From positions 1-64,000 of the forward strand of contig NZ_VFAC01000005.1 of assembly GCF_007644105.1 (NCBI RefSeq): a stretch of 64,000 nucleotides of DNA, in the 5' to 3' direction. The translations under genes and the position numbers were made by a program. Shown here piece by piece: positions 19,533 through 34,057 of this stretch (position 1 is its first letter; every line of letters begins with the position of its first letter). The stretch is from Elioraea rosea (GTDB lineage Bacteria; Pseudomonadota; Alphaproteobacteria; Acetobacterales; Acetobacteraceae). The notes below the pieces were generated by a model. It worked only from the letters and a program-made list of their open reading frames with translations, ran no database searches and was not told the DNA's origin.

Positions 19533-20498
19533 ATGATGCACCGCCGGATTTTCCTCGGCGCCGCGGGCGTGGCCTTCGCGCTGCCCGCCGGAGCCCAGGC
19601 CGATTTCCCGAGCCGCCCTCTCCGCCTGATCGTTCCGTTCGCGCCAGGGGGCTCGTCCGACGTGATGGCCCGCCTCGTCGCCGGCCACATGGGCAACACG
19701 CTCGGCCAGTCGATCGTCGTCGAGAACCGGGGCGGTGCGGGCGGCAATATCGGCGCAGAAGCCGTCGCCCGCGCCGCGCCGGACGGCTACACGATCGGCA
19801 CCGGCTCGGTCTCCATCCTCTCGATCAACAAGCATCTCTACGCGCGGCTGCCCTTCGACCCCGACAAGGATTTCACCCCGATCGGCCTCGTCGGCGTGCT
19901 GCCGAACATCCTGATCGCACACCCCTCCGTGCCGGTGACCGACCTTGCCTCGCTGATCGCCTACGTGAGGGCGAACCCAGGCAAGCTCTCCTACGCCTCG
20001 ACCGGTTCGGGCACGTCGCAGCATCTCGCTATGGAGATGCTCAAGACCGCCGCGGGCCTCGACATTCCCGCCGTCACCTACCGCGGCAGCGGCCAGGCGA
20101 TCCCCGACCTCGTGGCCGGCCGTGTCGAGCTGATGGTCGACACGATGGTGACGGGTGCTCAGCTCGCCCGCGAGGGCCAGGTCCGCGCCATCGCGGTGAC
20201 GACGGAAGCGCCGTCCCACCTCGCTCCTGACATGCCGCGCGTTTCGCAGACAATCCCAGGCTTCGACGCCGGCTCCTGGCTGGGCATCATCGCGCCGGCG
20301 GGGGTTCCCGCCCCTGTGGCACGCAAGCTGGAGGCAGCTGTCGAGGCTGCGGTGAAGGACCCGACGGTGGCACAGCGCCTGCGCGACCTCGGCGTGACGC
20401 CGACCCCCCTGGTCGGCGAGGCCTTCGCACGCTTCGTCGCGGCAGAGAGCGCGAAGTGGGGCCCTGTCGTTCGCGCCTCCGGTGCGCGGGTGGAGTGA
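19533..20498 (+). CDS. Bug/TctC family periplasmic solute receptor
   Basis: This is a 321 aa receptor, the third in the window. It has an N-terminal twin-arginine signal (MMHRRIFLGAAGVAFALP, cleavage after AGAQA), the loop RLIVPFAPGGSSDVMARL, IVVENRGGAGGNIGAEAVAR, YRGSGQAIPDLVAGRVELM and LGIIAPAGVPAP. ATG 19533 has GGGAGGA upstream. It is followed after 4 bp by an RraA-like aldolase gene, so the ligand may be a hydroxy/keto dicarboxylate that the aldolase then cleaves (inference). No TctA/TctB genes are nearby. Confidence 0.93.
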   Translation: MMHRRIFLGAAGVAFALPAGAQADFPSRPLRLIVPFAPGGSSDVMARLVAGHMGNTLGQSIVVENRGGAGGNIGAEAVARAAPDGYTIGTGSVSILSINKHLYARLPFDPDKDFTPIGLVGVLPNILIAHPSVPVTDLASLIAYVRANPGKLSYASTGSGTSQHLAMEMLKTAAGLDIPAVTYRGSGQAIPDLVAGRVELMVDTMVTGAQLAREGQVRAIAVTTEAPSHLAPDMPRVSQTIPGFDAGSWLGIIAPAGVPAPVARKLEAAVEAAVKDPTVAQRLRDLGVTPTPLVGEAFARFVAAESAKWGPVVRASGARVE

Positions 20499-20502
20499 GA
20501 CG

Positions 20503-21207
20503 ATGACCGACGCGACCACGGCGACCGTCACCACCCTTCTGCTGAAGAAGCATGGCATCCGCTCCGCCCATTGCGGCGGGCTGACGGCGCTCGACCCCGC
20601 GCGCTGTCGCTTCGTGGGCCGCGCCGTCACCGCCCGCTACGTGCCACTCAGGGAAGATCGGCTTGCCGAGCAGAGCCTCTCCAACGCCAACGCGCTGATG
20701 CACACGATCCTCGCCTCCCTGAAGCCCGGCGACGTGCTGGTGCTGGACGGAATGGGGGTCGCCGACACCGGCCTGATCGGCGACGTGATCGCCGCGCGGC
20801 TGAAGGCGATCGGCGTCGCCGGCGTGGTGGCCGATGGCGCCGTGCGCGACGCCGCGGAGATCAGGGGTCTCGGCCTGCCGGTGTTCTGCAAGGGCGCCGC
20901 CCCGCCGCCATCCTTCACCAGGCTCATGCTCGCAGACATGGGCTGCCCCGTCGGCATCGGCGGGGCGACGGTGTTCCCCGGCGACACGATCATGGGCGAC
21001 GAGGACGGCGTGGTGGTGCTGCCGGCCGCGCTTGCCGGCCCGATCCTGACCGAGGCGGCCGAGCAGGACGCGGCCGAGAAGTGGATCCGCCTCCGCGTCG
21101 AGGCCGGCGAGGTCCTGGCCGGGCTCTACCCGCCGAGCGAGGCGACGATGGCGCAGTACCGCTCCTGGGTCGCTGCCGGAAGCGACACGGCGAAGCTCGT
21201 GCCGTGA
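20503..21207 (+). CDS. RraA family protein, 4-hydroxy-4-methyl-2-oxoglutarate aldolase-like
   Basis: This is a 234 aa protein of the RraA/HMG aldolase fold. The catalytic signature region GDVIAARLKAIGVAGVVADG plus AVRDAAEI supplies the Gly-rich phosphate-like loop and the Arg-Asp pair used for metal-assisted retro-aldol cleavage of 4-hydroxy-2-oxo acids. Proteins of this type near Bug receptors are usually aldolases or oxaloacetate decarboxylases rather than RNase E regulators. ATG 20503 has GGAG upstream; an in-frame start at 20482 would overlap the Bug gene. Confidence 0.87.
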   Translation: MTDATTATVTTLLLKKHGIRSAHCGGLTALDPARCRFVGRAVTARYVPLREDRLAEQSLSNANALMHTILASLKPGDVLVLDGMGVADTGLIGDVIAARLKAIGVAGVVADGAVRDAAEIRGLGLPVFCKGAAPPPSFTRLMLADMGCPVGIGGATVFPGDTIMGDEDGVVVLPAALAGPILTEAAEQDAAEKWIRLRVEAGEVLAGLYPPSEATMAQYRSWVAAGSDTAKLVP

Positions 21208-22024: not shown

Positions 22025-22459
22025 CTACTTCACGGCAACCGCGGCGATCTCCACCTTGACGTCGCGGGGCAGGCGGGCGACCTGGACGGTCGCGCGCGCC
22101 GGCGGGTTGGAGGGGAAGTACGTCGCGTACACGGCGTTCATGCGCGGGAACTCGTTGAGGTCGGCCATGAACACGGTCGTCGAGACGACATTGGCCATCG
22201 TCATGCCGGCGGCCTCAAGGACCGCCTTGAGGTTGTCGAGGACGAGCTTCGTCTCCTCCTCGATCGTGCCGGACTTGACCTGGTTGGTCGCGGGGTCGAT
22301 CGCGATCTGCCCGGCGAGGTAGAGCGTGTTGCCCGCCCTGATCGCCTGGCTGTACGGGCCGATCGCGGCCGGCGCGTTCGGCGTCGACACCACCTGGTTC
22401 TGCGCCAGCGCAGGCAGGGCAACGAGCGCGGCGGCGGCAAGCAGGGCAATCCTGGTCAT
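22025..22459 (-). CDS. RidA/YjgF family protein with signal peptide
   Basis: RidA proteins hydrolyse reactive enamine/imine intermediates. This 144 aa copy carries an N-terminal signal peptide (MTRIALLAAAALVALPALAQ), so it should be periplasmic, unlike canonical cytosolic RidA. Core motifs are present: AIGPYSQAIRAGNTLYLAGQ, NLKAVLEAAGM, PARATVQVARLP with the substrate-carboxylate-binding Arg, and KVEIAAVAV. It starts 32 bp after the amidase stop on the same strand, so it may be the last gene of the 32840-22025 operon. The reaction in the periplasm is unknown. Confidence 0.9.
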   Translation of the reverse strand: MTRIALLAAAALVALPALAQNQVVSTPNAPAAIGPYSQAIRAGNTLYLAGQIAIDPATNQVKSGTIEEETKLVLDNLKAVLEAAGMTMANVVSTTVFMADLNEFPRMNAVYATYFPSNPPARATVQVARLPRDVKVEIAAVAVK

Positions 22460-22490: not shown

Positions 22491-23888
22491 TCATGATACC
22501 GGATCGATCGCTCCCGTCACGCCCGCACGTGCCTCGATGATCTCGCCGAGCGCGAGGCAGATGTCCTCGCGGAACCGGGCGGCGACAATCTGCACACCGA
22601 GCGGGATGCCGTCCGCCATCGTCGCCGTCGGCACCGAGAGCCCGGGAAGTCCGAGCAGGTTGAAGACGTAGAGCGGCGCCTGGGCACGGAGGATGCGCGC
22701 CCCCGCTTCCGCGCCCTTCTGGTCGAGGTCCTGCGGGAAGGGCGGCTCGAGCGACACGGGAAGCAGTGCGGCCGCGTAGGCGGAGAGGAACACGCTCCAG
22801 TCACGCCAGATCGCCGTTCGGCGGGCGAGGCCGGCTGCGAAGGCCGCCGGCTCGAGCGTGGGCACGTTGGCCGCCCAGCCGGCATAGGCCGCCTTGATCT
22901 GGGCATCGCCGTACTTCTCGATGACGGGCGACATCACCCGCTCCCCCTCCGTCATCAGCAGGCCGCGCCAGAGCTCTGCCGCCTCCTCGAACCGGGGCAT
23001 GCCGACCTCCTCGACGGCGCAGCCAGCTTCCGCAAGCCACCCGGCCGCCTGGCGAAGCGCGGCCGCGACCGGCTCGTCGGCGCCGAGCGTCGAGAAGGCG
23101 ATGCGCCAGGGCCTCGGCGGCAACGGCAGCTCGAGCGGCGCCGGTGCGTACCAGGGATCGCGCGGGTCAGGCTGCGCCATGGCGGCGAGGCCGAGGCGAA
23201 GGTCGCCGACCGTGCGCGCGAGCGGGCCCTGCACGCTCATCATCTGCAGGGTGATTGGTCGCTCATCGGGCGCGGTGCCGTTGAAGGCGGGCACGCGGCC
23301 GAAGCTCGGGCGGATGCCGGCAACGCCCACGGCATAGGCCGGGTAGCGGATCGAGCCGCCGAGGTCATTGCCGTGCGCGATCGAAGCCACGCCGACCGCG
23401 ACAGATGCCGAGGCCCCGCCCGAGGAGCCGCCGGGCGTGAGGCGCGGGTTGCGGGGGTTCAGCGTGCGTCCGTGCAGCGCGTTGTCGGTGAAGAAGCGGT
23501 AGCTGAAGGCGGGCGTGTTCGTACGCCCCATCGGGATCGCGCCGGCGCGGCGCAGATTGGCGACGACCGGGCTGTCCACCGCCGCGACCTGGTCCTTGAA
23601 GGCGACCACGCCATTGGTCGTCGCGTAGCCCTGCTGGTCGATGTTGACCTTGAGCGTCACTGGCACGCCGTGCAGCGGCCCGAGGGCCTCGCCGCGCGCG
23701 ACCGCCCTGTCGGCCGCATCGGCCGCTTGCAGCGCCTCGTCCGCCCGCATCTCGACCAGGGCGTTGATCGCCGGGTGCGTCGCCTCATGGCGCGCAAGCA
23801 CGGCGGAGACGACCTCGCGCGCGCTGGCGGCACGCGTGCGGATGGCGCGCGCCTGCTCGGCGGCGGAGAGAGCCCAGAGTTCGGTCAT
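22491..23888 (-). CDS. Amidase (amidase signature family)
   Basis: This is a 465 aa Ser-cisSer-Lys hydrolase that cleaves an amide to acid and ammonia/amine. The catalytic Lys is in PVTLKVNID, the glycine-serine loop is TPGGSSGGASASVAVG, and the nucleophilic Ser is in GNDLGGSIRYPA. ATG 23888 follows AGGA after the acyl-CoA dehydrogenase stop (8 bp spacing); a longer in-frame extension runs into that gene and is rejected. As the distal gene of a CoA-ester degradation operon, it may release the acid that is then activated to CoA, or act on an amide-containing substrate. Confidence 0.93.
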   Translation of the reverse strand: MTELWALSAAEQARAIRTRAASAREVVSAVLARHEATHPAINALVEMRADEALQAADAADRAVARGEALGPLHGVPVTLKVNIDQQGYATTNGVVAFKDQVAAVDSPVVANLRRAGAIPMGRTNTPAFSYRFFTDNALHGRTLNPRNPRLTPGGSSGGASASVAVGVASIAHGNDLGGSIRYPAYAVGVAGIRPSFGRVPAFNGTAPDERPITLQMMSVQGPLARTVGDLRLGLAAMAQPDPRDPWYAPAPLELPLPPRPWRIAFSTLGADEPVAAALRQAAGWLAEAGCAVEEVGMPRFEEAAELWRGLLMTEGERVMSPVIEKYGDAQIKAAYAGWAANVPTLEPAAFAAGLARRTAIWRDWSVFLSAYAAALLPVSLEPPFPQDLDQKGAEAGARILRAQAPLYVFNLLGLPGLSVPTATMADGIPLGVQIVAARFREDICLALGEIIEARAGVTGAIDPVS

Positions 23889-23896
23889 CGATGGTC

Positions 23897-25066
23897 CTAT
23901 CCCGGAAGGCCGAGCACGTTCTTGGCGATGATGCCGCGCTGGATCTCGTTCGACCCGCCGTAGATCGACACGACGCGGCTCTGGATGAAGGAGGCCGCGG
24001 GGTTGAGCGAGCGGTTCCCGCCGATCGGGTTCACCATCACGCCTTCCTCGCCGGCGATCTCGAAGGCCGTTTCGGTGATGCGCTGGTAGAGCTCGCTCTG
24101 CCACACCTTCAGCATCGACACGTCCGCGCCGAGCTCCTCGCCGCGGCGAAGCTTGGCGACCTGCGTCTCGTAGAGCGCCTTCAGGTCCTCGAGGTCCATC
24201 CTCAGGCGCGTGAAGCGCTCGGCGAACACGGGATCGTCCGCCACGCCCATGTGCTCGGCCACCTGGGCGAGCTTGGCGAGCGCGTAGGTCGATTGCTTGG
24301 GCGAGCCCAGGAAGATGCGCTCGAAACCGAGCAGCGCCTTGGCCATCGTCCAGCCCTTGTTCGGCTGGCCGACCAGGTTCTCCGCCGGCACGCGCACGTT
24401 GTCGAAGAACACCTCGCAGAACTCGTCATGCATATCGAGCGTGACGATGGGGCGAACGGTGATCCCCGGCAGGTCCATCGGGCAGAGAAGGAAGGAGATG
24501 CCGTCCTGCTTCTTGGCCTGCCTGTCGGTCCGTACGAGAAGGAAGATCCAGTTCGCGTCGTTGGCGAGCGTGGTCCAGATCTTCGACCCGTTGACGACGT
24601 AGTGGCCGCCCTCCAGCACGGCCTCGGTGCGCAGCGAGGCGAGGTCCGACCCCGCGTTGGGCTCGGAGTAGCCTTGGCACCAGATGTCCTCGCCCGCGAG
24701 GATGCGGGGCAGGAACCGCGCGCGCTGCGCATCGGTTCCATAGCGGATCAGCAGCGGCCCGATCATGGTGATGCCCATGTCGTTCGTGCGCGGCGCGCCG
24801 TGACGCTCCAGCTCCTCAATGAAGATGATCTGCTTGGACGGCGAGAGTCCCATGCCGCCGACCTCGCGCGGCCAGCCAGGCGCGAGCCAGCCCTGCTTCG
24901 CGAGCGCCATGTACCAGGGCTTCGACTGCGACCAGTGAAGCCGCTTCGGCGGGTGGCGGAGCTCGGGCGGGCAGTTGGCCTGGATCCAGCCGCGGACATG
25001 GGTGCGGAACGCGTCGTCCGGCATGGCGTTGAGGTCGTCCGGGGCGGGGCGCGTCATCTCGTTCAT
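23897..25066 (-). CDS. Acyl-CoA dehydrogenase (first of two in operon)
   Basis: This is a 389 aa FAD enzyme of the FadE type that introduces an alpha-beta double bond into an acyl-CoA. FAD/substrate elements are visible: CQGYSEPNAGSDLASLRTEA, VVNGSKIWTTLANDANWIF and IYGGSNEIQRGIIAKNVLG. The canonical catalytic Glu position near the C-terminus (YEG in MCAD) is Gly here (IYGGS), as in many bacterial and heteromeric ACADs where the base is elsewhere or in the partner. ATG 25066 with AAGGAT upstream starts 1 bp after the enoyl-CoA hydratase stop. Confidence 0.92.
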   Translation of the reverse strand: MNEMTRPAPDDLNAMPDDAFRTHVRGWIQANCPPELRHPPKRLHWSQSKPWYMALAKQGWLAPGWPREVGGMGLSPSKQIIFIEELERHGAPRTNDMGITMIGPLLIRYGTDAQRARFLPRILAGEDIWCQGYSEPNAGSDLASLRTEAVLEGGHYVVNGSKIWTTLANDANWIFLLVRTDRQAKKQDGISFLLCPMDLPGITVRPIVTLDMHDEFCEVFFDNVRVPAENLVGQPNKGWTMAKALLGFERIFLGSPKQSTYALAKLAQVAEHMGVADDPVFAERFTRLRMDLEDLKALYETQVAKLRRGEELGADVSMLKVWQSELYQRITETAFEIAGEEGVMVNPIGGNRSLNPAASFIQSRVVSIYGGSNEIQRGIIAKNVLGLPG

Positions 25067-25067
25067 G

Positions 25068-25841
25068 TCACGATCCTTCTCCGAATCGGGCTTGCCGCTT
25101 CTCGAGGAAGGCGGCCTTGCCCTCGGCATGGTCGGGCGTGAGGTAGAGGGCCGATTGCAGATCCTGCTCGCGGGCAAGGGCCTGGTCGAGCCCCTCGGCG
25201 AGAACGGCCTTGGTGAGGGCCAGCGTCAGCGGCGCAAGAGAGGCGAGCACCTCCGCCCTCTCGCGCGCCACCTTCAGCGCCGACCCGGCAGGGACGACCC
25301 TGTCGGCGAGCCCGATCGCCTCTGCGCGGGGAGCATCGAGCGCCTCGGCGAAGAGCAGCATCTCCCGCGCCCGGGCTTGGCCGACGCGCGCAGGAAGCGT
25401 GTGCAGCAGGCCGAGATCCGGCAGCAGGCCGACCTTCCCGAAGCTCGCGAGGAACTTCGCTTCCGCTCCCGCAACCACATGGTCCGACGCGCAGGCGAGC
25501 GAGATGCCGGCACCGGCGCACCAGCCCTCGATGGCGGCGACGATGGGACAGCGCGCATGCACCATCAGGCGGATGAGCCTGTGCGCATGGCGCATCCTCT
25601 CGCGGCCTTCCGCGACGCTCTCCACATGCATGCCGGTGAGGTCGCCGCCGGCGCAGAAATGCTCGCCGGTTCCGGTGAGGATCACCGCGCGGACGGTCCT
25701 GTCGGCCTCGAGGTCCTCGATCGCATCCGCCAGGCGGTGGCGCATCGCGACGGAGAGCGCGTTGCGGCGCTCCGGCCAGTTCAGCGTGAGCGTGACGATG
25801 CCCCCGTCGCGCGAGACGAGAACCGGCTCCGTCGCGATCAT
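25068..25841 (-). CDS. Enoyl-CoA hydratase/isomerase family protein
   Basis: This is a crotonase-fold enzyme of about 257 aa. The oxyanion-hole segment is GEHFCAGGDLTG and the second is EGWCAGAGISLACASD. The catalytic region FLASFGKVGLLPDLGLLHTLP has Asp in the second acidic position, in the manner of PaaG/isomerase-like members rather than the two-Glu hydratases. I chose ATG 25841 (GGGGGG just upstream); ATG 25865 is an alternative eight residues longer that would overlap the upstream dehydrogenase gene. It sits between the two acyl-CoA dehydrogenase genes. Confidence 0.9.
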   Translation of the reverse strand: MIATEPVLVSRDGGIVTLTLNWPERRNALSVAMRHRLADAIEDLEADRTVRAVILTGTGEHFCAGGDLTGMHVESVAEGRERMRHAHRLIRLMVHARCPIVAAIEGWCAGAGISLACASDHVVAGAEAKFLASFGKVGLLPDLGLLHTLPARVGQARAREMLLFAEALDAPRAEAIGLADRVVPAGSALKVARERAEVLASLAPLTLALTKAVLAEGLDQALAREQDLQSALYLTPDHAEGKAAFLEKRQARFGEGS

Positions 25842-25851
25842 GTGCCCCCCA

Positions 25852-26946
25852 TCAGGCGTCGACATCCAGCGGTGGCGCCGCCTCGGCGTAGCGGCGGCGA
25901 TGCGCGGTCGCGGTGCCGAAGCACGCGGCGAGCACCATCGCCCGGCGCAGGAACAGCCCGATATCCGCCTCGTCGGTGTAGCCGATGCCACCGTGAAGCT
26001 GGATCGCCTGGCGGGTGACGGTCAACGCCGCGTCGGAGGCGCGGGCCTTCGCAAGCGACGCGGCGGCGGCACGTTGCGCGGCGGGTGCGCCATCGTCGCA
26101 CACCGAGGCGGCGTGGCTCACAGCCGCGCGCGCCAGCTCCAGCTGGATCTTGAGGTCGGCGGCACGGTGCTGCAGCACCTGGAACGCGCCGATCGGCTTG
26201 CCGAACTGCTGGCGCGTGTTGAGGTAGTCGAGCGTGATGGCAAAGGCCCGGTCCATCAGCCCGACGAGCTCCGCCGCCGTCGCGATCGCAGCCTCGTCGA
26301 GCAGCCGGGCGATGCGGGAGGAGGCGTCCTCCGCGACGCGCACACAGCGCGCGGCCTCGAGCGTCAGCGTGCCGAGATGCCCGCCATCGACCGTCGACTC
26401 GGCGTGCAGCGTGACGCCCGGCACGCCGGTCTCGACGAGCACGACCGACAGCGCGTCGCCCTCGCGCGCCGTGACGAGGAACCCGTCGGCACCGGCGGCC
26501 ATTGGCACGGCGATCTTGCGGCCGGTGACGCGAAGCGTCGCGCCGTCGATCGCAGCACTCGTCGTGCCACTGGCGTCGACCGCATGCGGCTTCTCCGCCC
26601 ACGCGGGAAGCAGGACGCGCGCGCCGGCGATCACATCCTCTTCCGGAACGAGCGGCGCGGCGATGGCGGCGACGGCGACGAAGGGCTCGGGCGCGAGGCC
26701 ATGGCCGAGTTCCTCGGCAAGCGCGCAGAGCTCCGCGACGCCGAGACCGGCCCCGCCCGCCTCCTCCGCCACGCGAAGCCCGAGCCAGCCGAGCGCGCCC
26801 ATCTCGGCGAGCACCGCGCGGTCGAACCCCGCCTCGGTGCTGCGCAGCGCCCGGACGCGCCCGAGCGGGCCGTTGCGGGGGCTGATGGCGGCCGCACTAT
26901 CGCGGAGGAGCCGGATGCCCTCCGCACGATCCTCCACCGCGCTCAT
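25852..26946 (-). CDS. Acyl-CoA dehydrogenase (second of two in operon)
   Basis: This is a 364 aa ACAD-fold protein, somewhat divergent. It has FDRAVLAEMGALGWLGLRVAE at the N-terminus, TRQQFGKPIGAFQVLQHRAADL, and QLHGGIGYTDEADIGLFLRRA near the end. The usual C-terminal YEG Glu segment is replaced by ACFGTATAHRRRYAE, so this subunit probably has no canonical base there. Together with the 23897 gene it looks like the two halves of an alpha2-beta2 ACAD, as ChsE1-ChsE2 in mycobacteria (inference). ATG 26946 overlaps the CoA-transferase B stop (ATGA). Confidence 0.88.
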   Translation of the reverse strand: MSAVEDRAEGIRLLRDSAAAISPRNGPLGRVRALRSTEAGFDRAVLAEMGALGWLGLRVAEEAGGAGLGVAELCALAEELGHGLAPEPFVAVAAIAAPLVPEEDVIAGARVLLPAWAEKPHAVDASGTTSAAIDGATLRVTGRKIAVPMAAGADGFLVTAREGDALSVVLVETGVPGVTLHAESTVDGGHLGTLTLEAARCVRVAEDASSRIARLLDEAAIATAAELVGLMDRAFAITLDYLNTRQQFGKPIGAFQVLQHRAADLKIQLELARAAVSHAASVCDDGAPAAQRAAAASLAKARASDAALTVTRQAIQLHGGIGYTDEADIGLFLRRAMVLAACFGTATAHRRRYAEAAPPLDVDA

Positions 26947-27602
26947 GCCGGGAGATGGAGCCTGGCTTCGCTCCGCGCCTGCAGCGCCTCGAGCGTCAGG
27001 CCGGGGATCATCTCGCGCACGACGAAGCCGCGCGGCTCGACATCGATGACTGCCAGGTTCGTGTAGATTCGCTTGACGGCGCCGAGCGCTGTGAGGGGGT
27101 AGGAGCAGCGCCGCACCAGCCGCGGGCGGCCATCCTTCGTCGTGTGTTCCATCACGACCCAGAGGCGCCTCGCACCGGCGGCGAGGTCCATCGCGCCGCC
27201 GACGGCCGGTGCCTTCTCGTTCGCGCCGGTCGACCAGTTGGCGATGTCGCCGTTCTCGGCCACCTCGAAGGCGCCGAGCACGCAGAGGTCGAGATGCCCG
27301 CCGCGGATCAGCGCGAAGCTGTCGGCGTGGTGCACATAGGCCCCGCCGGTACGCAGCGTGACGTGCTGCTTGCCGGCGTTGATCAGCCACGGGTCGCGGG
27401 CATCCTCCGCCGGAGCGGGGCCGACGCCGATCACGCCGTTCTCGCTGTGGAAGATCACCTCGCGGTCCTCGGGCACGTGATCGGCCACCAGGGTGGGAAT
27501 GCCGATGCCGAGATTGACGATCCAGCCCTCTGGGATGTCGGCCGCCACGCGGGCTGCCATCTGCGTGCGGTTCAGCGGCTTGGGCTCGACCACAGCGTCC
27601 AT
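26943..27602 (-). CDS. 3-oxoacid CoA-transferase family, subunit B
   Basis: This is a 219 aa beta subunit of a family I CoA-transferase that moves CoA between a donor such as succinyl-CoA or acetyl-CoA and an acid. The catalytic Glu lies in FHSENGVIGVGPAP. Other signatures are VNLGIGIPTLVADHV, GGHLDLCVLGAFEV and MEHTTKDG. ATG 27602 has GGAGG 6 bases upstream. The A subunit gene is immediately upstream (13 bp gap). The acid substrate is unknown; the context favours the intermediate of this operon rather than acetoacetate. Confidence 0.93.
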   Translation of the reverse strand: MDAVVEPKPLNRTQMAARVAADIPEGWIVNLGIGIPTLVADHVPEDREVIFHSENGVIGVGPAPAEDARDPWLINAGKQHVTLRTGGAYVHHADSFALIRGGHLDLCVLGAFEVAENGDIANWSTGANEKAPAVGGAMDLAAGARRLWVVMEHTTKDGRPRLVRRCSYPLTALGAVKRIYTNLAVIDVEPRGFVVREMIPGLTLEALQARSEARLHLPA

Positions 27603-27615
27603 CTCTGTCCTCCCG

Positions 27616-28311
27616 TCAATAGAGCGGCTTGCCGAGATCGGGCTCACCGTAGGGGATATGCACGACGCGGTCCACGAACACGCCGGGCGTGACGATCGCC
27701 TCGGGGTCGAGGGCGCCGAGCTCCGCCACGTGCTGCGTCTGCGCGATGGTCAGCTCGGCGGCCATCGCCATGACCGGGTTGAAGTTCCGCCCTGCCTTCC
27801 GATAGGTCAGGTTCCCCCAGCGATCGGCCTGCCAGGCCTCGACCAGCGCCACGTCGCCTCTCAGCGCGCGCTCGAGCACATAGGTGCGGCCGTCGAACTC
27901 GCGCGTCTCCTTCCCCTCGGCGAGCGCCGTGCCGAGGCCGGTTGGCGTGTAGAAGGCGGGAAGCCCGGCGGAGGCGGCGCGCATCCGTTCCGCCATCGTT
28001 CCCTGGGGCACGATCTCGAGCTCGATCTTCCCCTCCTTGTACAGCTCCTCGAGCACCACCGAACCCGCGCTGCGCGGGAAGGAGCAGATGATCTTGCGGA
28101 CCCGTCCCTCTGCCATCACACGCGCGAGCCCGTGCGTGCCGGTGCCGGCGTTGTTGCACACCACCGTCAGGTCGCGCAGGTCCGCCTCCGACAGCGCCTC
28201 GATCAGCGCGTTCGGCGTGCCGACCTGGCCGAACCCGCCGATCAGGATCGTCGCGCCGCTCCTCACCCCGGCGAGCGCCTCGGCCGTGCCGCGCACGAAC
28301 TTGTCGATCAT
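27616..28311 (-). CDS. 3-oxoacid CoA-transferase family, subunit A
   Basis: This is a 231 aa alpha subunit partner of the gene that follows. CoA-binding features are ILIGGFGQVGTPNALIEAL and VVCNNAGTGTHGLARVM, then SFPRSAGSVVLEELYKEG and a C-terminal YGEPDLGKPLY tail. ATG 28311 has GAGG 7 bases upstream and overlaps the stop of the MaoC-like gene by four bases. Subunits A and B as separate adjacent genes are the usual ScoA/ScoB or PcaI/PcaJ arrangement. Confidence 0.93.
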   Translation of the reverse strand: MIDKFVRGTAEALAGVRSGATILIGGFGQVGTPNALIEALSEADLRDLTVVCNNAGTGTHGLARVMAEGRVRKIICSFPRSAGSVVLEELYKEGKIELEIVPQGTMAERMRAASAGLPAFYTPTGLGTALAEGKETREFDGRTYVLERALRGDVALVEAWQADRWGNLTYRKAGRNFNPVMAMAAELTIAQTQHVAELGALDPEAIVTPGVFVDRVVHIPYGEPDLGKPLY

Positions 28312-29168
28312 GGCGCCACCTCGCAAAGCCCATTGTTGATCACCATCGTCTCGCGCTCGGCGGCAAGGGCGGTGAAGCCGAACCGGCCGCCGCCCTCATC
28401 CCACACCTCGGTGACGATCGTTTCGCCCGGGAAGACGGGGGCCGAGAAGCGGAGGTCGATGCGCTTCATCCGGCCCGGTTCGCCGCCGCAGCAGAGGCGG
28501 AGAAGCGCGTGGCCGACGACGCCCATGGTGCAGAGCCCGTGCAGGATCGGGCGCGGGAAGCCTGCCTTCGCCGCCACCGCCGGGTCCGCGTGCAGCGGGT
28601 TGTGGTCGCCGTTGAGGCGATAGAGCAGCGCCTGCTCGGGGCGGGTGGTGAGCGACAGCGTCGCGTCCGGCGCGCGGTCGGGGATCGCGTGCGGCGCCTT
28701 CACGGGCCCGGTCGCGCCGCCGAACCCGCCATCGCCGCGGAGGAAGGTCGTGCTCTCGAGCGTCGCCAGCAGCGAGCCCGCGGAATCGAGCACCTCGCGC
28801 GCGGAGTAGAGCAGGGCACCTTTGCCAGCACCGCGGTCAACCAGGCCGGTGACGCGTGAGCGGCCGATAATCTCGCCCTCCACAGGCAGCGGGCGATGCA
28901 GGGTGACCGACTGTTCGCCATGCACGAGCCGCGTCGCGTCCACGCCCGTATCGGGCCGGCCGAGCCAGAAGCCCGGATAGCCGAGCACGACCGCCATGGT
29001 CGGGAGTGCGATGAGCTCGGGCTCGTACACGAAGCGGCGCTGCCAGTCGTCCACGGGGTCCTGCCCGAGGCCGACTGAGAGCGCGTAGAGCATCGTGTCC
29101 TTGCGCGTGAGCGCCTGGCGGATCTCGGGGATGGGGTAGGCGAGCAGCTTCGCGGGGTCGAGCGGCAT
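28308..29168 (-). CDS. MaoC-like (R)-enoyl-CoA hydratase, double hotdog
   Basis: This is a 286 aa protein with two hotdog domains, like the hydratase-2 part of peroxisomal multifunctional enzyme 2. The C-terminal half carries the hydratase-2 motif YRLNGDHNPLHADPAVAAKA followed by GFPRPILHGLCTMG, with the catalytic Asp and His. The N-terminal half (PTMAVVLGYPGFW, HGEQSVTLHRPLPVEGEI) is the substrate-binding hotdog. It would hydrate an enoyl-CoA to the (R)-3-hydroxyacyl-CoA. It is co-translated with CoA-transferase A and 1 bp from the acyl-CoA ligase gene. It is analogous in position and fold to ChsH1 of the igr operon. Confidence 0.9.
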   Translation of the reverse strand: MPLDPAKLLAYPIPEIRQALTRKDTMLYALSVGLGQDPVDDWQRRFVYEPELIALPTMAVVLGYPGFWLGRPDTGVDATRLVHGEQSVTLHRPLPVEGEIIGRSRVTGLVDRGAGKGALLYSAREVLDSAGSLLATLESTTFLRGDGGFGGATGPVKAPHAIPDRAPDATLSLTTRPEQALLYRLNGDHNPLHADPAVAAKAGFPRPILHGLCTMGVVGHALLRLCCGGEPGRMKRIDLRFSAPVFPGETIVTEVWDEGGGRFGFTALAAERETMVINNGLCEVAP

Positions 29169-29169
29169 G

Positions 29170-31263
29170 TCAGTCCTCCAGCGTCAGCACCGCATCGAGC
29201 GCGAGCGCGCCGCGGCCTTCCGGCAACACCATCAGCGGGTTCACCTCCACGCCAGCGAGGCGCGGCCCTGCGGAGGCGGCGAAGCAGGAGAGGCGCGAGA
29301 GCGCGGCGGCCAGCGCGGCGACGTCCATGCGCGGGCGGCCGCGCGCGCCGTGGAGCAGCGGGAAGCCGCGGAGCGAGCGGATCATTGCGAGCGCCTCAGC
29401 CTCACCGAAGGGGCATAGGCGAAGGCACACGTCGCGCAGCACCTCGACGAACACCCCGCCCAGGCCGACCATCGCGACGGGCCCGAACACGGGGTCGCGC
29501 GTGACGCCGATGACGCATTCGACGCCGCCCGAGACCATCGGCGTGACGAGCACGCCCGCCACGCGCGCCTCGGGCGCATGCCGCGCGGCATTGGCCACGA
29601 TCTCGTCATGGGCGGATCGCACCGACTCCGCATCTTCCAGCCCGAGCTTCACGCCGCCGATCTCGCTCTTGTGCAGCACGTCAGGTGAGACGAGCTTCAT
29701 CGCGACGGGAAAGCCGAGGCGATCGGCCGCCGCGGCGGCGGCTTCGGCCGAAGCGCACAGCACCTCCTCCGGCGAGGCGATGCCAATGGCCGCGAGAATC
29801 CGTTTCGCTTCCGCCTCGTCGGGCGACGCAGCGGGCAGGTCGGGAGGGTTCGCAAGCATAGGCGCGCTCGCAGCCGGTCGCGCGAAGGCCTCGCCGAAGC
29901 GGCCCATTGCGGCCAGCGCGCCCACCGCACGTGTCGGGTCCTCGAACACGAGATAGCCGCCGTCCTGCCAGGCTCGGATCGTCTCGTCCGGCCCCGTCAC
30001 CGATAGGATGAACAGCCTGTCGGGAAACTTCGCCACCGTCGCATCGAGTTGCTTGCGCAACGAGGGCGCGATGCTGCGCGAGGCGCCCACCTGGGTGAAG
30101 AAGGCGATGGCGCTCGTATAGCCGCCGTCGCCCAGCATGCTCTCTGCAAATCGGCCGATCACCGACATGTCGTTGAAGGCCTGCGCGGTGCAGTCCACCG
30201 GGTTGACGGAGGACGAGAACGGCACGAGCGCCTTCAGCCGGGCCTGCGCCTCCTCCGGCATCGGCGGCATGGCGAGCCCCACCGCCTCTGCCGCGTCGGA
30301 GATCAGCACCCCCGCACCGCCGGAGATGGTGACGACGCCAAGCGTGTTTCCCACGGGGTAGATGCGCCGCGTCGAGACCTCGGCAACGTCGAGCAGCTCC
30401 TCGGTGTTACGCGCGCGGAACACGCCGGCATCGCGCAGCACCGCATCCGTTACCGCATCGTCGCCGGCGATCGAGGCGGTGTGGCTGCGCGCCGCCCTCG
30501 CGCCGAGCGCGGAGCGGCCGACCTTGATCATCGCCACGGGCTTCTGCGCACGCCGCGCCGTCTCGATCGCCGCAAGGAAGGAGGGAGCATCGCGCACGCC
30601 TTCCGAGTACGCGACGATCACGTCCGTCTCGGGGTCCTCCGCGAGCCAGCCGATGGCTTCCCCGAGCGTCACGTCCGCCTCGTTTCCGGTGGTGACCAGG
30701 ATTGGCGTGCCAAGGCGGCGGTCACGCGCCAGCGCGAAGAGATGCGTGCCGTAGGCGCCGGACTGGCTCGCGATGCCGATGCGCCCAGGGTGCGGCCAGC
30801 CATTCTCGAAGCTCGAGGAGAAGATCGGGTAGTAGCCGAGCCGCGCGTTGAAGAGGCCGAGCGCGTTCGGCCCGAGAAGCCGCATGCCGGCTGCCTTCGC
30901 CGCCGCGGTGAAGCGTGCCTGCACGGCAGCGCCGGCCTCGTCCACCTCCGCGAAGCCGGCGGTGAACATGATCGCCGCCTTCACGCCCTTGGCGATGCAA
31001 TCGGCCACCGCCTGCTCGGCCGCAGCGCCAGGTACGGCGATGATCGCGGCATCCACCTCGCCCGGAACGTCTGCCAGCGTCGGGTAGGCGCGCAGGCCCT
31101 GCACCCTGTCGCGGTTCGGGTTCACCGGCAGGATCGGGCCGGCGAAGCCGCGCTCCTTCATGTAGGCGATCGGCCGGCCGCCGATCCGAATGGGGTCCTG
31201 GCTCGCGCCGAGGATGGCGATGCTGCGCGGCGCGAGAAGCGGCGTCAGCGATGCGAAGCGCAT
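29170..31263 (-). CDS. ADP-forming acyl-CoA synthetase (acetate-CoA ligase family)
   Basis: This is a 697 aa fused alpha-beta enzyme that makes acyl-CoA from acid, ATP and CoA with ADP release, or runs the reverse. The order is: CoA-binding domain (SIAILGASQDPIRIGGRP), ligase-like domains with the phospho-His segment ARSHTASIAGDDAV, and a C-terminal ATP-grasp (LGFPVAMKLVSPDVLHKSEIG; FGPVAMVGLGGVFVE). The start ATG 31263 lies 5 bp after the thiolase-like gene stop with a weak ribosome site. Long upstream extension of the frame overlaps that gene and is rejected. It gives the operon its own substrate activation step besides the CoA-transferase. Confidence 0.92.
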   Translation of the reverse strand: MRFASLTPLLAPRSIAILGASQDPIRIGGRPIAYMKERGFAGPILPVNPNRDRVQGLRAYPTLADVPGEVDAAIIAVPGAAAEQAVADCIAKGVKAAIMFTAGFAEVDEAGAAVQARFTAAAKAAGMRLLGPNALGLFNARLGYYPIFSSSFENGWPHPGRIGIASQSGAYGTHLFALARDRRLGTPILVTTGNEADVTLGEAIGWLAEDPETDVIVAYSEGVRDAPSFLAAIETARRAQKPVAMIKVGRSALGARAARSHTASIAGDDAVTDAVLRDAGVFRARNTEELLDVAEVSTRRIYPVGNTLGVVTISGGAGVLISDAAEAVGLAMPPMPEEAQARLKALVPFSSSVNPVDCTAQAFNDMSVIGRFAESMLGDGGYTSAIAFFTQVGASRSIAPSLRKQLDATVAKFPDRLFILSVTGPDETIRAWQDGGYLVFEDPTRAVGALAAMGRFGEAFARPAASAPMLANPPDLPAASPDEAEAKRILAAIGIASPEEVLCASAEAAAAAADRLGFPVAMKLVSPDVLHKSEIGGVKLGLEDAESVRSAHDEIVANAARHAPEARVAGVLVTPMVSGGVECVIGVTRDPVFGPVAMVGLGGVFVEVLRDVCLRLCPFGEAEALAMIRSLRGFPLLHGARGRPRMDVAALAAALSRLSCFAASAGPRLAGVEVNPLMVLPEGRGALALDAVLTLED

Positions 31264-31268
31264 CGCCG

Positions 31269-32420
31269 CTACAGTGCCGCCTCGTTGCCGAGCAGCGCCG
31301 TCACCTGGCTCGAAAGCGTCCCGCCATTGCCATGCACGAGCGCCACATCGCATCGCTCGAGCTGCCTCTCGCCGGCACGGCCACGAAGCTGCTGAACCGC
31401 CTCGACGATCAGGAACATCCCGTACATGCCGGGATGGACGCAGGAGAGCCCACCGCCATTGGTGTTCACCGCAAGCCGCCCGCCTGGCGCGATCGCGCCG
31501 TCCATCACGAAGCGCCCACCCTCGCCCTTCGGGCAGAAGCCGAGATCCTCGAGGAAGAGTATAGTGTTGATGGTGAAGGCGTCGTAGAGCATCGCCAGAT
31601 GCACATCCGACGGCGAGAGCCCGGCATGGGCGAAGGCACGCGGGCCGCTCTCGGAAGCCGCGGTGATGGCGAGATCCGGCATCGAGGAGATGGTGCGATG
31701 CCACTGCGCGCCGGCACCGCCAAGGAAGTAGGCGGGCTTATGCTTCAGGTGCCTGGCGCGATCCGCCCGCGTCATGATGCAGGCCGCACCGCCATCGGTG
31801 ACGAGGCAGCAATCGAGCACCGAGAGCGGATCCGACACCATCCGGCTCTTCAGCACATCTTCGCGCGAGAGCGGGCCGCGGGCGAAGGCGTTGGGGTTCA
31901 GGTTCGCCCAGGCCCGCGCCGCGACGGCCACCTCGGCGAGCATCTCGCGCGTCGTACCGAACTCGTGCATGTGGCGCGAGGCCGCGAGCGCGTAGGCCGT
32001 AATCGGGTGGCGCGGCTTGAACGGCGCCTCCCACACCTGCGGCTCCGACATCGAGACCAGCTTGCCGCCCGCCGTGCGCTGGTTCGAGCCGTAGCAGATG
32101 AGTGCCACGTCGCAGAGCCCGGCATCGAGGGCGAGCGATGCGTGCAGCAGATGCGCCTCGAAGCTCGATCCGCCGACATTCGTGCCGTCGAAGTATTTCG
32201 GCTTGATGCCGAGATACTCGCCGACCGAAAGGGTCGGGAAGGCATGCACCGAGGTCGCGGTGAAGATGCCGTCGACCTCGGCAACCGTCAGCCCGGCATC
32301 GGCGACGGCAGCGATCGACGCCTCGGCGAGTAGCTCGATCGCCGACCGCCCCGGCGCCTCGCCCGTGCCCGCCGTGCCGATGCCGACGATCGCCGCCTTG
32401 CCGCGAAGGGAGTGTGCCAT
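31269..32420 (-). CDS. Thiolase-fold protein lacking the nucleophilic Cys (Ltp2/SCP2-type, probable retro-aldolase)
   Basis: This is a 383 aa SCP2-type thiolase-like protein. Where thiolases carry the acyl-accepting Cys it has NVGGSSFEAH (residues 81-90), with Ser and no Cys. Later features are intact: MLYDAFTI (278-284), the NTNGGGLSCVHPGMYGM loop with His329, and a final GNGGTLSSQ. This pattern matches Ltp-type proteins, of which actinobacterial Ltp2 is a retro-aldolase working with a DUF35 partner, not a thiolase. Here the DUF35 gene is directly upstream (12 bp). True thiolysis is therefore unlikely, and C-C cleavage of a 3-hydroxyacyl-CoA with a branched or tertiary carbon is my inference. 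Confidence 0.88.
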   Translation of the reverse strand: MAHSLRGKAAIVGIGTAGTGEAPGRSAIELLAEASIAAVADAGLTVAEVDGIFTATSVHAFPTLSVGEYLGIKPKYFDGTNVGGSSFEAHLLHASLALDAGLCDVALICYGSNQRTAGGKLVSMSEPQVWEAPFKPRHPITAYALAASRHMHEFGTTREMLAEVAVAARAWANLNPNAFARGPLSREDVLKSRMVSDPLSVLDCCLVTDGGAACIMTRADRARHLKHKPAYFLGGAGAQWHRTISSMPDLAITAASESGPRAFAHAGLSPSDVHLAMLYDAFTINTILFLEDLGFCPKGEGGRFVMDGAIAPGGRLAVNTNGGGLSCVHPGMYGMFLIVEAVQQLRGRAGERQLERCDVALVHGNGGTLSSQVTALLGNEAAL

Positions 32421-32432
32421 CTCTCGTTCCCC

Positions 32433-32840
32433 TCAGGCCGGGTCGAACACGACGTTGGGCGCGCCATCGACGGTCGCGACCCGCGCCTTCACGCGCATCC
32501 CGATCGTCACCTTGTCGGGGGCGATGCCTTCGACGCGGCTCATCATGCGTGGGCCTTCGTCGAGCGCGATGATGGCGATGTTGTAGTCGGCCGAGGAGCC
32601 GTCGGGGTTCGGGCGCTGCCGCGTCACCGTGGTGGCGTAGACCGTGCCGAGGCCGGATGCCTCGACCCATTCGAGGTCGGTCTCGCCGGTGCTGGGAACG
32701 GCGACGCGGGGGTAGAAGACATGCACACCCGCGGAAGCGCTCCGCTGCAGCATGAACTTCCCTTCGGCGAGATGGGCGCGGAACACGGCCTCGGGCCCCG
32801 GCGCCGTGCCTGCGGCTGGCCCGGATTTCTGTTCGGACAC
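32433..32840 (-). CDS. DUF35 OB-fold protein without zinc-ribbon cysteines
   Basis: This is a 135 aa acyl-CoA-binding-type partner protein. The C-terminal OB-fold is normal for the family: WVEASGLGTVYATTVTR, NIAIIALDEGPRMMSRV and VTIGMRVKARV. The N-terminal rubredoxin-like ribbon, which usually has four Cys (QRC..CG...YPR..CP.CG), reads LQRSASAGVHVFYPRVAVPS and continues TGETDLEW; the whole protein contains no Cys. DUF35 proteins bind and scaffold thiolase-like enzymes. GTG 32840 with GAGGAA upstream is the first gene of the minus-strand operon. Zinc binding must have been lost in this copy. Confidence 0.88.
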   Translation of the reverse strand: MSEQKSGPAAGTAPGPEAVFRAHLAEGKFMLQRSASAGVHVFYPRVAVPSTGETDLEWVEASGLGTVYATTVTRQRPNPDGSSADYNIAIIALDEGPRMMSRVEGIAPDKVTIGMRVKARVATVDGAPNVVFDPA

Positions 32841-32944: not shown

Positions 32945-34057
32945 TCAGCCCTGCGCGTCGGGAGAGAGCGCCACGCAAGTGCGGTTCGCGCGCTCCAGCC
33001 TCTGGCAGGCTGCGACGGCGGCGTCGGCCGACAGGCCCGCGAGCCTGGCGCGCGTGAGCGTCCCCGACGAGGTCCGCACCTGGCGGAGATCGGGCCGCGC
33101 CGAGGCGAGGATGTCGGGCGCGGCGCGGCGGGCCGCCTCCGTGGCCGATCGCGCCTGGGCCTCGGCCTGGAACGCGCCGACCTGGATCGCCCAGTCGCCC
33201 ACCAGGGCGGTCGGCCGCGGTGCACCGAAGGATGGCGCGGCGTGGGCCGAGGAGATCAGGCGGAACCCGCCCTGCGAAGGCGGAGCGGGGCTGCGCGTGG
33301 TCGCGGCGACCACCACGGGCTCGCGCACCGGCGCCCTGACCGGCGCGGCGGCGACCTGCGTTGGCGGGGCAGGCGGCGGGCGGGGCGGCGAGTAGGAGGC
33401 AAGTTGCGTCGGCATCGCGCCGGGGCGACGGCGACCGGCCGGGATGTTCGTGGGGATCGCGGCCATCTGGTACACGACCGGGTCGGCGCGGTAGCGCGGA
33501 TGCGTGCCGGCGATCTGCGGCGCGATCTTGGCGACGTAGTTGCGCGTCTCGTTCGGCAGGCCGCGGCGCCCGGCGAGGTAGTTGTCGAAGGTGCCTGGTC
33601 CCCCGTTGTACGCGGCGAGAAAGCCCGGGTTGCCGAAGCGCTCATACATCTCGCGGATATAGGCCGTGCCGGCGAGGATATTGTCCTTCGGGTAGTAGGG
33701 ATCCGGCCCGAGACCGTGACGCTCGGCGAGTTCCGCATAGGTGGCAGGCATCACCTGCATCAGCCCCATCGCGCCGGCGCCGGACAGCGCCATCGGACGG
33801 CCGGCGCTTTCGACGCGCATCACCTCGCGGATCCATGCCTCCGGCACGTCATAGCGCTGGGAGGCCTCGACGATGTAGGGGCCCCAGGGGTCATGCGGCG
33901 GGCCGGGAGGCGAATAGTCGCGCGGGCCGCTTGCGTAGTGGGCCCGGTTGCCGCCGCTTCCGCCGCAGGCCGCAAGGCCGCCGAGGGCAACGCAGCAGAG
34001 GAGCATCCGGAGGATGGTGGCCGCGCTCGACCCACGCACGCCCTGCCTGCTCGCCAT
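32945..34057 (-). CDS. Lytic transglycosylase lipoprotein with SPOR domain
   Basis: This is a 370 aa envelope enzyme that cleaves peptidoglycan between MurNAc and GlcNAc. ATG 34057 (GAGGGG upstream) gives a lipoprotein signal ending in LGGLAAC. The SLT domain follows: catalytic Glu in VMRVESAGRP, then SGAGAMGLMQVMPATYAEL and FLAAYNGGPGTFDNYL. A Pro/Ala-rich linker leads to a C-terminal SPOR domain (GDWAIQVGAFQAEAQARSA) that binds denuded septal glycan. This suggests a role at division or daughter-cell separation, similar in layout to RlpA/MltE combinations. It is a single gene. Confidence 0.92.
   Translation of the reverse strand: MASRQGVRGSSAATILRMLLCCVALGGLAACGGSGGNRAHYASGPRDYSPPGPPHDPWGPYIVEASQRYDVPEAWIREVMRVESAGRPMALSGAGAMGLMQVMPATYAELAERHGLGPDPYYPKDNILAGTAYIREMYERFGNPGFLAAYNGGPGTFDNYLAGRRGLPNETRNYVAKIAPQIAGTHPRYRADPVVYQMAAIPTNIPAGRRRPGAMPTQLASYSPPRPPPAPPTQVAAAPVRAPVREPVVVAATTRSPAPPSQGGFRLISSAHAAPSFGAPRPTALVGDWAIQVGAFQAEAQARSATEAARRAAPDILASARPDLRQVRTSSGTLTRARLAGLSADAAVAACQRLERANRTCVALSPDAQG

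Follow-up and report, generated by a model that had tools for sequence, protein, structure and literature searches.

Two thiolase-fold aldolases with a DUF35 partner are close described relatives of the system reported here, namely Ltp2-ChsH2 of the igr operon (PDB 6ok1) and the bile-acid aldolase CtSal-Shy (PDB 9myr, PMC12329534). The catalytic residues are Tyr294 and Tyr344 in Ltp2 and Tyr302 and Cys304 in Sal, and in Sal the replacement of the nucleophile Cys by Gly rules out thiolysis (PMC12329534). All DUF35 structures known in 2019 bind zinc (PMC6996347), and the role first proposed for the DUF35 family was the delivery of acyl-CoA (PMC2954200). Here we describe a ten-gene operon of Elioraea rosea (Acetobacteraceae), at positions 22491-32840 of a 64,000-nucleotide stretch of contig NZ_VFAC01000005.1 (the window), which encodes a DUF35 protein and a thiolase-fold protein, hereafter THIO. 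Built around an MFE-2-like core, the operon serves the catabolism of an acid as its CoA thioester, and within the thiolase superfamily its DUF35-THIO pair sides with the aldolases. On balance, we lean towards the reading that this acid is an organic one and that the pair forms a Tyr/His retro-aldolase module.

Active site, phylogeny and zinc site of the DUF35-THIO pair

THIO (31269-32420, minus strand), a predicted aldolase or lyase, matched the NCBIfam model NF004811 (PRK06158) at 660.5 bits (cut-off 421), a model that names such proteins acetyl-CoA acetyltransferase. Its closest homolog in named records, with 94% identity, was that of Elioraea sp. bin.267; a literature search on PRK06158 returned no paper, and none of the eight papers listed for Elioraea was relevant. 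We found that the nucleophile site is Gly84 in all 121 aligned rows, the THIO group reading GGSS or GGAS there as compared with ACAS, ACSA, NCST or ACAT in five Cys thiolase references. The first position of a further motif is His in the five Cys thiolases (HDAF or HDCF) and Tyr in THIO, Ltp2 and Sal. In THIO this residue is Tyr279 of YDAF (codon 31584-31586, minus strand), which aligned with Ltp2 Tyr294 and Sal Tyr302 and was present in all 105 tallied rows as well as in all 121 aligned rows. The motif YDAF occurred in 100 of 100 rows, comprising 81 close ones (window included) and 19 intermediate ones, and the sixteen aligned rows outside the tally (L036-L051) all showed YDAF on a separate alignment check. 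His329 (codon 31434-31436, minus strand) was conserved in 105/105 tallied rows, five of which are more distant and read YDSF. Since His329 stands at the position of Ltp2 Tyr344 and Sal Gln352, the residue set of THIO is unlike either: the signature of Ltp2 proper, YDHF with Tyr344, is replaced by YDAF with His329, and the Cys of YDCY, the signature of Sal proper, by Ala281. Because Ala281 stands where Sal needs a Cys, a different acid would be required in THIO, for which His329 is the candidate.

In a tree of 36 rows, which left out two classic thiolases and a paralog at locus L205, THIO, CtSal and TcLtp2 were split from the five Cys thiolases with a support of 100/100. When the two classic thiolases and one paralog were added, the same split was obtained at 92/89, long branches meeting there. 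On the 36 rows, an approximately unbiased (AU) test did not discriminate on whether Sal and Ltp2 form one clade (p = 0.415). Residues and tree together rule out that THIO is a Cys thiolase, in agreement with the original prediction, which had proposed that the operon lacks a true thiolase and had named a grouping of the thiolase-like protein with Ltp2-like aldolases as support. By the same residues and phylogeny, an ordinary thiolase function is unlikely for THIO-like proteins at large. The genome also carries a Cys-type SCP2 thiolase and further matches to the classic thiolase family, so that other genes provide for ordinary thiolysis.

The solved structures nearest to THIO by sequence were 4u4e, then CtSal and Ltp2, with Cys-type DUF35 thiolases lower. 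The AlphaFold model of THIO (pLDDT 87.8) matched CtSal (Z 50.9), 4u4e (50.3), TbSLP (49.8) and Ltp2 (49.7), values too close for their order to matter. Lower values were obtained for an archaeal Cys thiolase (48.7), for BbsB (45.4) and for classic thiolases (about 35). Such fold searches have no bearing on function, and families missing from the match lists may still match. Two observations concern THIO homologs elsewhere. Eight of the 59 tree rows, none of them from the THIO clade (L248, L250, L251, L252, L255, L259, L260 and L237), have a Cys one residue past the nucleophile site (GGCS), and the homologs in G033, G119 and G171 (45-49% identity) contain one in-frame stop (TAA, TAG or TGA) inside the match.

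The DUF35 partner subunit (32433-32840, minus strand) belongs to the OB-fold family PF01796 (74.6 bits, cut-off 27.1). Its model (pLDDT 92.9; best matches 6htj_B with Z 15.6, 6ok1_D with 14.6 and 9myr_B with 14.1) keeps the overall DUF35 architecture. The zinc-ribbon cysteines are absent: an alignment with the zinc-bearing relatives L071-L075 placed a degenerate zinc-ribbon loop at residues 34-51 (32688-32741, minus strand), with S34, A37, V48 and T51 at the four zinc positions. A Cys at any of these positions was found in none of 79 group-1 DUF35 rows (window included; L182, short, and the second copy of L205 were dropped). Among the intermediate rows, 7 of 19 had a Cys, at the third position only, and the other 12 had none of the four, while all four were present in 4/4 more distant rows. 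The idea that a degenerate zinc site is unique to the THIO clade was rejected, as the DUF35 partners of other clades include zinc-bearing ones (CCCC) beside partly degenerate ones (CTST and NTCD, with one Cys of four). Total loss of the four Cys was seen only in the THIO clade and in those 12 intermediate rows. The DUF35 protein is thus predicted not to bind zinc. No description of a zinc-less DUF35 protein was recognised in our literature searches, judged mostly from listings; the papers listed dealt with steroids, PhlABC, Trf/SSO2064 or unrelated subjects. A zinc-free partner would show that the zinc ribbon is dispensable for the partner of a thiolase-fold enzyme.

Operon enzymes and their recurrence in other genomes

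The ten genes lie on the minus strand and are nearly contiguous, neighbouring pairs overlapping by at most 14 bp or being spaced by at most 13 bp, which confirms the co-directional, tightly packed arrangement first proposed. The spacing of 31 bp that had been included in that proposal separates the amidase gene from the next gene, 22025-22459, outside the ten-gene set. Pfam supported all ten families, and NCBIfam models matched all proteins except DUF35, several under their curated cut-offs. The family labels of the original prediction hold at this level, with two changes: the "enoyl-CoA hydratase" looks isomerase-like and the MaoC protein resembles the hydratase-2 of MFE-2.

An ADP-forming acyl-CoA ligase (29170-31263, minus strand) carries His261 in the motif SHTASIAGDD, a residue conserved in 64/64 ungapped rows (70 aligned). 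It is followed by a double-hotdog MaoC protein of the hydratase-2 type (28308-29168, minus strand), whose Asp188 and His193, which we take to be the hydratase-2 motif, occurred in 59/59 rows; its PDB matches include MFE-2 hydratases. Subunits A (27616-28311, minus strand; TIGR02429, 339.6 bits, cut-off 128.5) and B (26943-27602, minus strand; TIGR02428, 290.3 bits, cut-off 243.55) of a 3-oxoacid CoA-transferase come next, with Glu54 of SENG in subunit B conserved in 15/15 rows. Two acyl-CoA dehydrogenases (ACADs) are encoded, the small-subunit-type ACAD1, PimD- or Tcur3481-like (25852-26946, minus strand), and the large-subunit-type ACAD2, PimC- or Tcur3483-like (23897-25066, minus strand), which scored under the PimD and PimC cut-offs, respectively. 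The best PDB match of both was 6wy8, formed by the heteromeric subunits Tcur3481/Tcur3483, and PimC/PimD are equally plausible kin. In the crotonase-fold protein between them (ECH; 25068-25865, minus strand, alternative start 25841), Asp150 was present in 42/42 ungapped rows and no conserved Glu was found at two positions that we assume to be the catalytic Glu sites of hydratases. For these reasons the protein looks like a PaaG-type isomerase. The last gene encodes an amidase signature enzyme (22491-23888, minus strand; NF005687, PRK07487), which may set the acid free from an amide.

To place the operon among other genomes, the best 80 of 415 THIO loci in named records were considered, 65 of them with full flanks; this set is rich in Pseudomonas (21/65). 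Gene calls of relatives came from a codon-usage script and not from annotation, neighbourhood counts rest on identity thresholds, and labels of unscanned genes are similarity clusters. The 65 full-flank loci span 35 genera or unnamed groups, with titles from Alpha-, Beta- and Gammaproteobacteria, and contained DUF35 in 64, the ligase in 55, a (3R)-hydroxyacyl-CoA dehydrogenase of the SDR type in 55, MaoC in 49 and ECH in 36. ACAD1 and ACAD2 were each present in 31, the CoA-transferase subunits A and B in 19 and 13, respectively, and the amidase in 3. A tblastn tally over the 80 loci gave 62 for the ligase, 57 for MaoC, 36 for ACAD2 and 30 each for ACAD1 and ECH. The genes of the operon are thus found together in many genera, as had been anticipated, and the arrangement is therefore not due to chance. 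The cassette of ADP-forming ligase and MFE-2-like enzymes occurs in most of the genera or groups examined and is uncharacterised according to our literature searches, in which no paper combined three of four current annotation names. The amidase was rejected as a member of the widely conserved core, being found at an identity of at least 55% in 6/80 named loci, all titled Elioraea. The two ACADs occurred both in 29 of the 65 loci, neither in 32 and singly in 4, and in an independent-pair test about 6 of 8 supported pairs agreed and none opposed (median p 0.03). Such tests were not significant for ligase-MaoC, MaoC-SDR, ligase-SDR, ACAD2-ECH, CoA-transferase-TRAP and n17-n18.

We found THIO at an identity of at least 73% in 17 genomes of a family sample of 200. 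At these 17 loci (16 and the window), DUF35 stood directly upstream in 17/17 and the ligase next in 15; of the two exceptions, one had an ATP-grasp fragment and the other, on a contig of 7.7 kb, had different genes, its genome carrying a ligase elsewhere. Where THIO was 57-62% identical (19 loci), tblastn did not find the ligase, several of these contigs being short. With the same settings, the ligase was present in 105 and MaoC in 71 of the 200 genomes, which weakens the view that they are partners specific to the THIO clade. In addition, we inspected 20 Acetobacteraceae ligase loci, hand-picked from genomes without a close THIO (distant THIO near L237 and L238 was known beforehand, and L226 is a 6.4 kb contig). 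MaoC was present in 17, both CoA-transferase subunits in 13, ECH in 12, both ACADs in 11 and weaker amidase homologs (48-52%) in 7. Ten of the 20 lie downstream of the SLT gene that also flanks the window operon, at a distance of zero to two genes. This SLT gene, a lytic transglycosylase gene by reading (32945-34057, minus strand), forms the upstream flank in many Acetobacteraceae with or without DUF35-THIO. DUF35-THIO occurred at only 2/20 and was there of another clade (43-45% identity), adjoining SDR. Much of the operon of ligase, MaoC, CoA-transferase and ACADs is thus also found without DUF35-THIO, often at the same chromosomal site, so that DUF35-THIO is the removable part and the ligase its frequent partner, contrary to the earlier suggestion that the ligase had been added to an igr-type set. 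The DUF35-THIO pair is a separable, attachable two-gene module. All 20 ligase-locus genomes have some THIO homolog. Among 20 further THIO loci hand-picked from the match lists, DUF35 was adjacent in 18, and in two of these SDR follows after one ACAD. Any THIO homolog (E at most 1e-50) was found in 103/105 of the 200 genomes with the ligase (E at most 1e-150) as compared with 16/95 without it, figures uncorrected for size and descent; many of the genomes without a listed match are small.

The SDR of the E. rosea genome lies on another contig (61% identity to the query, 73% to operon SDRs), next to a glyoxalase-fold gene, an ACAD, TAXI-TRAP genes and a FAS1_DH-type hydratase. The last two are also its neighbours in Rhodobacteraceae clusters. 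SDR was present in 13 of 15 genomes searched (own included), and its best PDB matches include the MFE-2-type (3R)-hydroxyacyl-CoA dehydrogenases 2et6, 1zbq, 1gz6 and 3oml. An MFE-2-type pairing is split here, with the hydratase-2 MaoC in the operon and the SDR unlinked, while elsewhere SDR belongs to the same cassette (55/65). In the same 15 genomes, ACAD2 orthologs of at least 67% identity were found in 9 (own included); of the other six, five had only paralogs of at most 47%, and one incomplete genome had nothing at the threshold.

Several loci differ in gene content. In Pseudomonas, the loci also hold genes for an IclR regulator, a thioesterase, a flavoprotein of the nitronate-monooxygenase family and an MFS transporter (AAHS-like, under cut-off). 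Those of Rhodobacteraceae carry TAXI-TRAP transporter genes in addition and, nearby, genes for a CaiB-type transferase, a CitE-type lyase (RipC-like, under cut-off), a FAS1_DH-type hydratase and an ACAD. These added genes suggest that the substrates are organic acids, which may be dicarboxylic or methyl-branched. A second kind of cluster in Pseudomonas/Zestomonas (L147, L153, L155, L156, L168 and L188) has THIO of the same clade, an aldehyde dehydrogenase, extra ACADs and no ligase. Beside its first THIO/DUF35/ligase group, L205 (Methylobacterium indicum) has a second one, at about 36-38% identity and accompanied by TctC-type receptors. In L048, L049 and L051 THIO and the ligase are separated by an extra gene, which is of the nitroreductase family in L048, and the operon contains a TctC-type receptor; L048 also carries a PEP-mutase-type gene. 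Three loci of uncultured Elioraea (L139, L140 and L141) show reduced operons of DUF35, THIO, an ECH-type protein, amidase and RidA, in which ligase, MaoC, CoA-transferase and ACADs were not found.

Around the operon in the window, the gene 31 bp beyond the amidase (22025-22459, minus strand) is RidA-like by reading and adjoins the operon in close relatives too. An AidB-type ACAD gene (17140-18885, minus strand) lies 3.1 kb beyond it; its homologs (45-58% identity) lay no more than about 10 kb from the cassette at 10/80 named loci, a weaker association. Genes for TctC, receptors of tripartite tricarboxylate transporters, are scattered at 7483-8457 (plus strand) and 13636-14604 (minus strand), both labelled by Pfam, and at 19533-20498 (plus strand), labelled by similarity clustering, the last adjoining an RraA-like gene (20503-21207).

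Predicted reactions and rival explanations

From the families, synteny, residues and phylogeny shown above, we infer the following division of labour. The ADP-forming ligase would make the CoA thioester, as the CoA-transferase would for 3-oxoacids, of a substrate that may be a branched or dicarboxylic acid. The ACAD1/ACAD2 pair would desaturate this thioester and the hydratase-2 MaoC would add water, after which the MFE-2-like SDR, unlinked in this genome, could oxidise ordinary 3-hydroxyacyl-CoAs. DUF35-THIO would cut the C-C bond of a 3-hydroxyacyl-CoA barred from the normal route, for example the tertiary alcohol of a beta-branched acid, giving acetyl- or propionyl-CoA and a ketone, keto acid or aldehyde. 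In this cleavage Tyr279 may act as the base and His329 as the acid, with neither a Cys nucleophile nor zinc in DUF35.

Several observations weigh against this retro-aldolase module. Mutation of the Cys of YDCY to Ala kills the activity of CtSal (PMC12329534), and THIO has Ala at that position. The structure discriminates poorly, the archaeal Cys thiolase being only 2.2 Z units under the best match. DUF35-THIO was absent from 18 of the 20 hand-picked ligase loci, so the pathway may run without it. Moreover, the frequent occurrence of a (3R)-hydroxyacyl-CoA dehydrogenase (SDR, 55/65) fits the cleavage of a ketoacyl-CoA at least equally well, and the one similarity cluster of aldehyde dehydrogenases seen was absent from all ligase-bearing loci (0/55). 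The last two points suit the main rival reading, a rather unlikely one, in which DUF35-THIO would cleave the 3-ketoacyl-CoA made by MaoC and SDR, a split MFE-2, by a Cys-free retro-Claisen reaction, for example a hydrolytic one, and the ligase would re-activate the free acid. MaoC (49/65 loci) and SDR both resemble MFE-2 domains, a cassette with both provides a full peroxisome-style turn of beta-oxidation minus the thiolase, and His329 is the thiolase His. However, the Cys thiolases have His (HDAF or HDCF) where THIO shares Tyr with Ltp2 and Sal, the tree places THIO with the aldolases, and we know of no precedent for a Cys-free retro-Claisen reaction in the thiolase fold.

We consider it improbable that the locus is an igr-like operon for a non-steroid substrate, in which the ACAD pair and a hydratase would precede an Ltp2-type retro-aldolase. 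Although both ACADs have 6wy8 as their top PDB match and THIO sides with the aldolases, neither ChsH1 nor ChsH2 is named among the 31 PDB matches of MaoC, DUF35 is separate and zinc-less, YDAF and His329 replace YDHF and Tyr344, each ACAD is present in fewer than half of the full-flank loci (31/65), and the hand-picked ligase loci mostly lack DUF35-THIO. Less probable still is that DUF35-THIO is not a lyase, its function being acyl-CoA binding, acyl transfer or condensation (cf. PhlABC), or THIO being a nearly inactive thiolase relative. PhlC-like structures do match the THIO model (Z about 45), but PhlC has a nucleophile Cys, which THIO lacks. The pair is dispensable in relatives, and DUF35 was first proposed as a deliverer of acyl-CoA (PMC2954200); against this, Tyr279, His329 and the GG loop are strictly conserved even in distant rows, which argues for catalysis.

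With the Tyr/His retro-aldolase preferred among these readings, it is conceivable, though we hold it short of probable, that the thiolase superfamily has in THIO-DUF35 a third catalytic solution, namely a C-C lyase module that works with a Tyr/His pair, needs neither zinc nor a nucleophilic Cys, and is set in a cassette of ligase and MFE-2-like enzymes. If so, it would cleave branched acyl-CoAs where normal beta-oxidation stops. If THIO-like proteins are aldolases, their common annotation as acetyl-CoA acetyltransferase would be wrong, and a branched organic acid route would become testable.

Comparison with described systems

The igr operon, whose gene content was taken for comparison from PMC12502768, was the model of the original prediction. 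Of that parallel, the broad kinship of THIO and, more tentatively, the ACAD pair persist, and the gene set as a whole does not, since the recurrent partners are the ligase, SDR and MaoC rather than the ACADs. MaoC and DUF35 cannot be equated with ChsH1-ChsH2 either, being separate genes (28308-29168 and 32433-32840), with MaoC matching MFE-2 hydratases. To our knowledge, an MFE-2-like (3R)-hydroxyacyl-CoA dehydrogenase is not part of the igr operon. Ltp2-ChsH2 has the same fold, a DUF35 partner and the Tyr of YDxF in common with THIO-DUF35 (36% identity over 368 residues), and differs from it in its acid (Tyr344 instead of His329), its YDHF motif, its C4 zinc site and its operon partners.

CtSal is similarly close (37% identity over 370 aligned residues), with the thiolase fold, the DUF35 partner, the Gly at the nucleophile site and the catalytic Tyr in common (PMC12329534). 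It has Cys304 of YDCY as the acid and Gln352, whereas THIO has Ala281 and His329, and its DUF35 lies within the MaoC-bearing Shy with a C3H1 zinc site, whereas that of the operon is separate and lacks the ligands. The nearest solved structure, the uncharacterised 4u4e of Sphaerobacter thermophilus (54% identity over 350 residues), has the GGSS, His329 and HGxG set in common with THIO, with YDSF instead of YDAF. IpfE, of the thiolase-type pair IpfDE, is reportedly a DUF35 protein; the word DUF35 does not occur in the main text of the paper on it. This two-gene pair of ibuprofen degradation was compared by description only, its acyl-CoA pathway being said to release propionyl-CoA (PMC9195938).

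Among Cys-type enzymes, the benzoylsuccinyl-CoA thiolase BbsAB (7pxp) is likewise paired with DUF35 and has the His of HPxG and of HxxG in common with THIO. Unlike THIO, it has the nucleophile Cys and HDAF, and its DUF35 subunit keeps the zinc cysteines (PMC12329534). Finally, MFE-2 with SCPx offers a parallel for the cassette, whose MaoC and SDR resemble the hydratase-2 and (3R)-hydroxyacyl-CoA dehydrogenase domains of MFE-2; in contrast to that system, the cassette genes are separate, and the cleaving enzyme is paired with DUF35 and lacks the nucleophile Cys.

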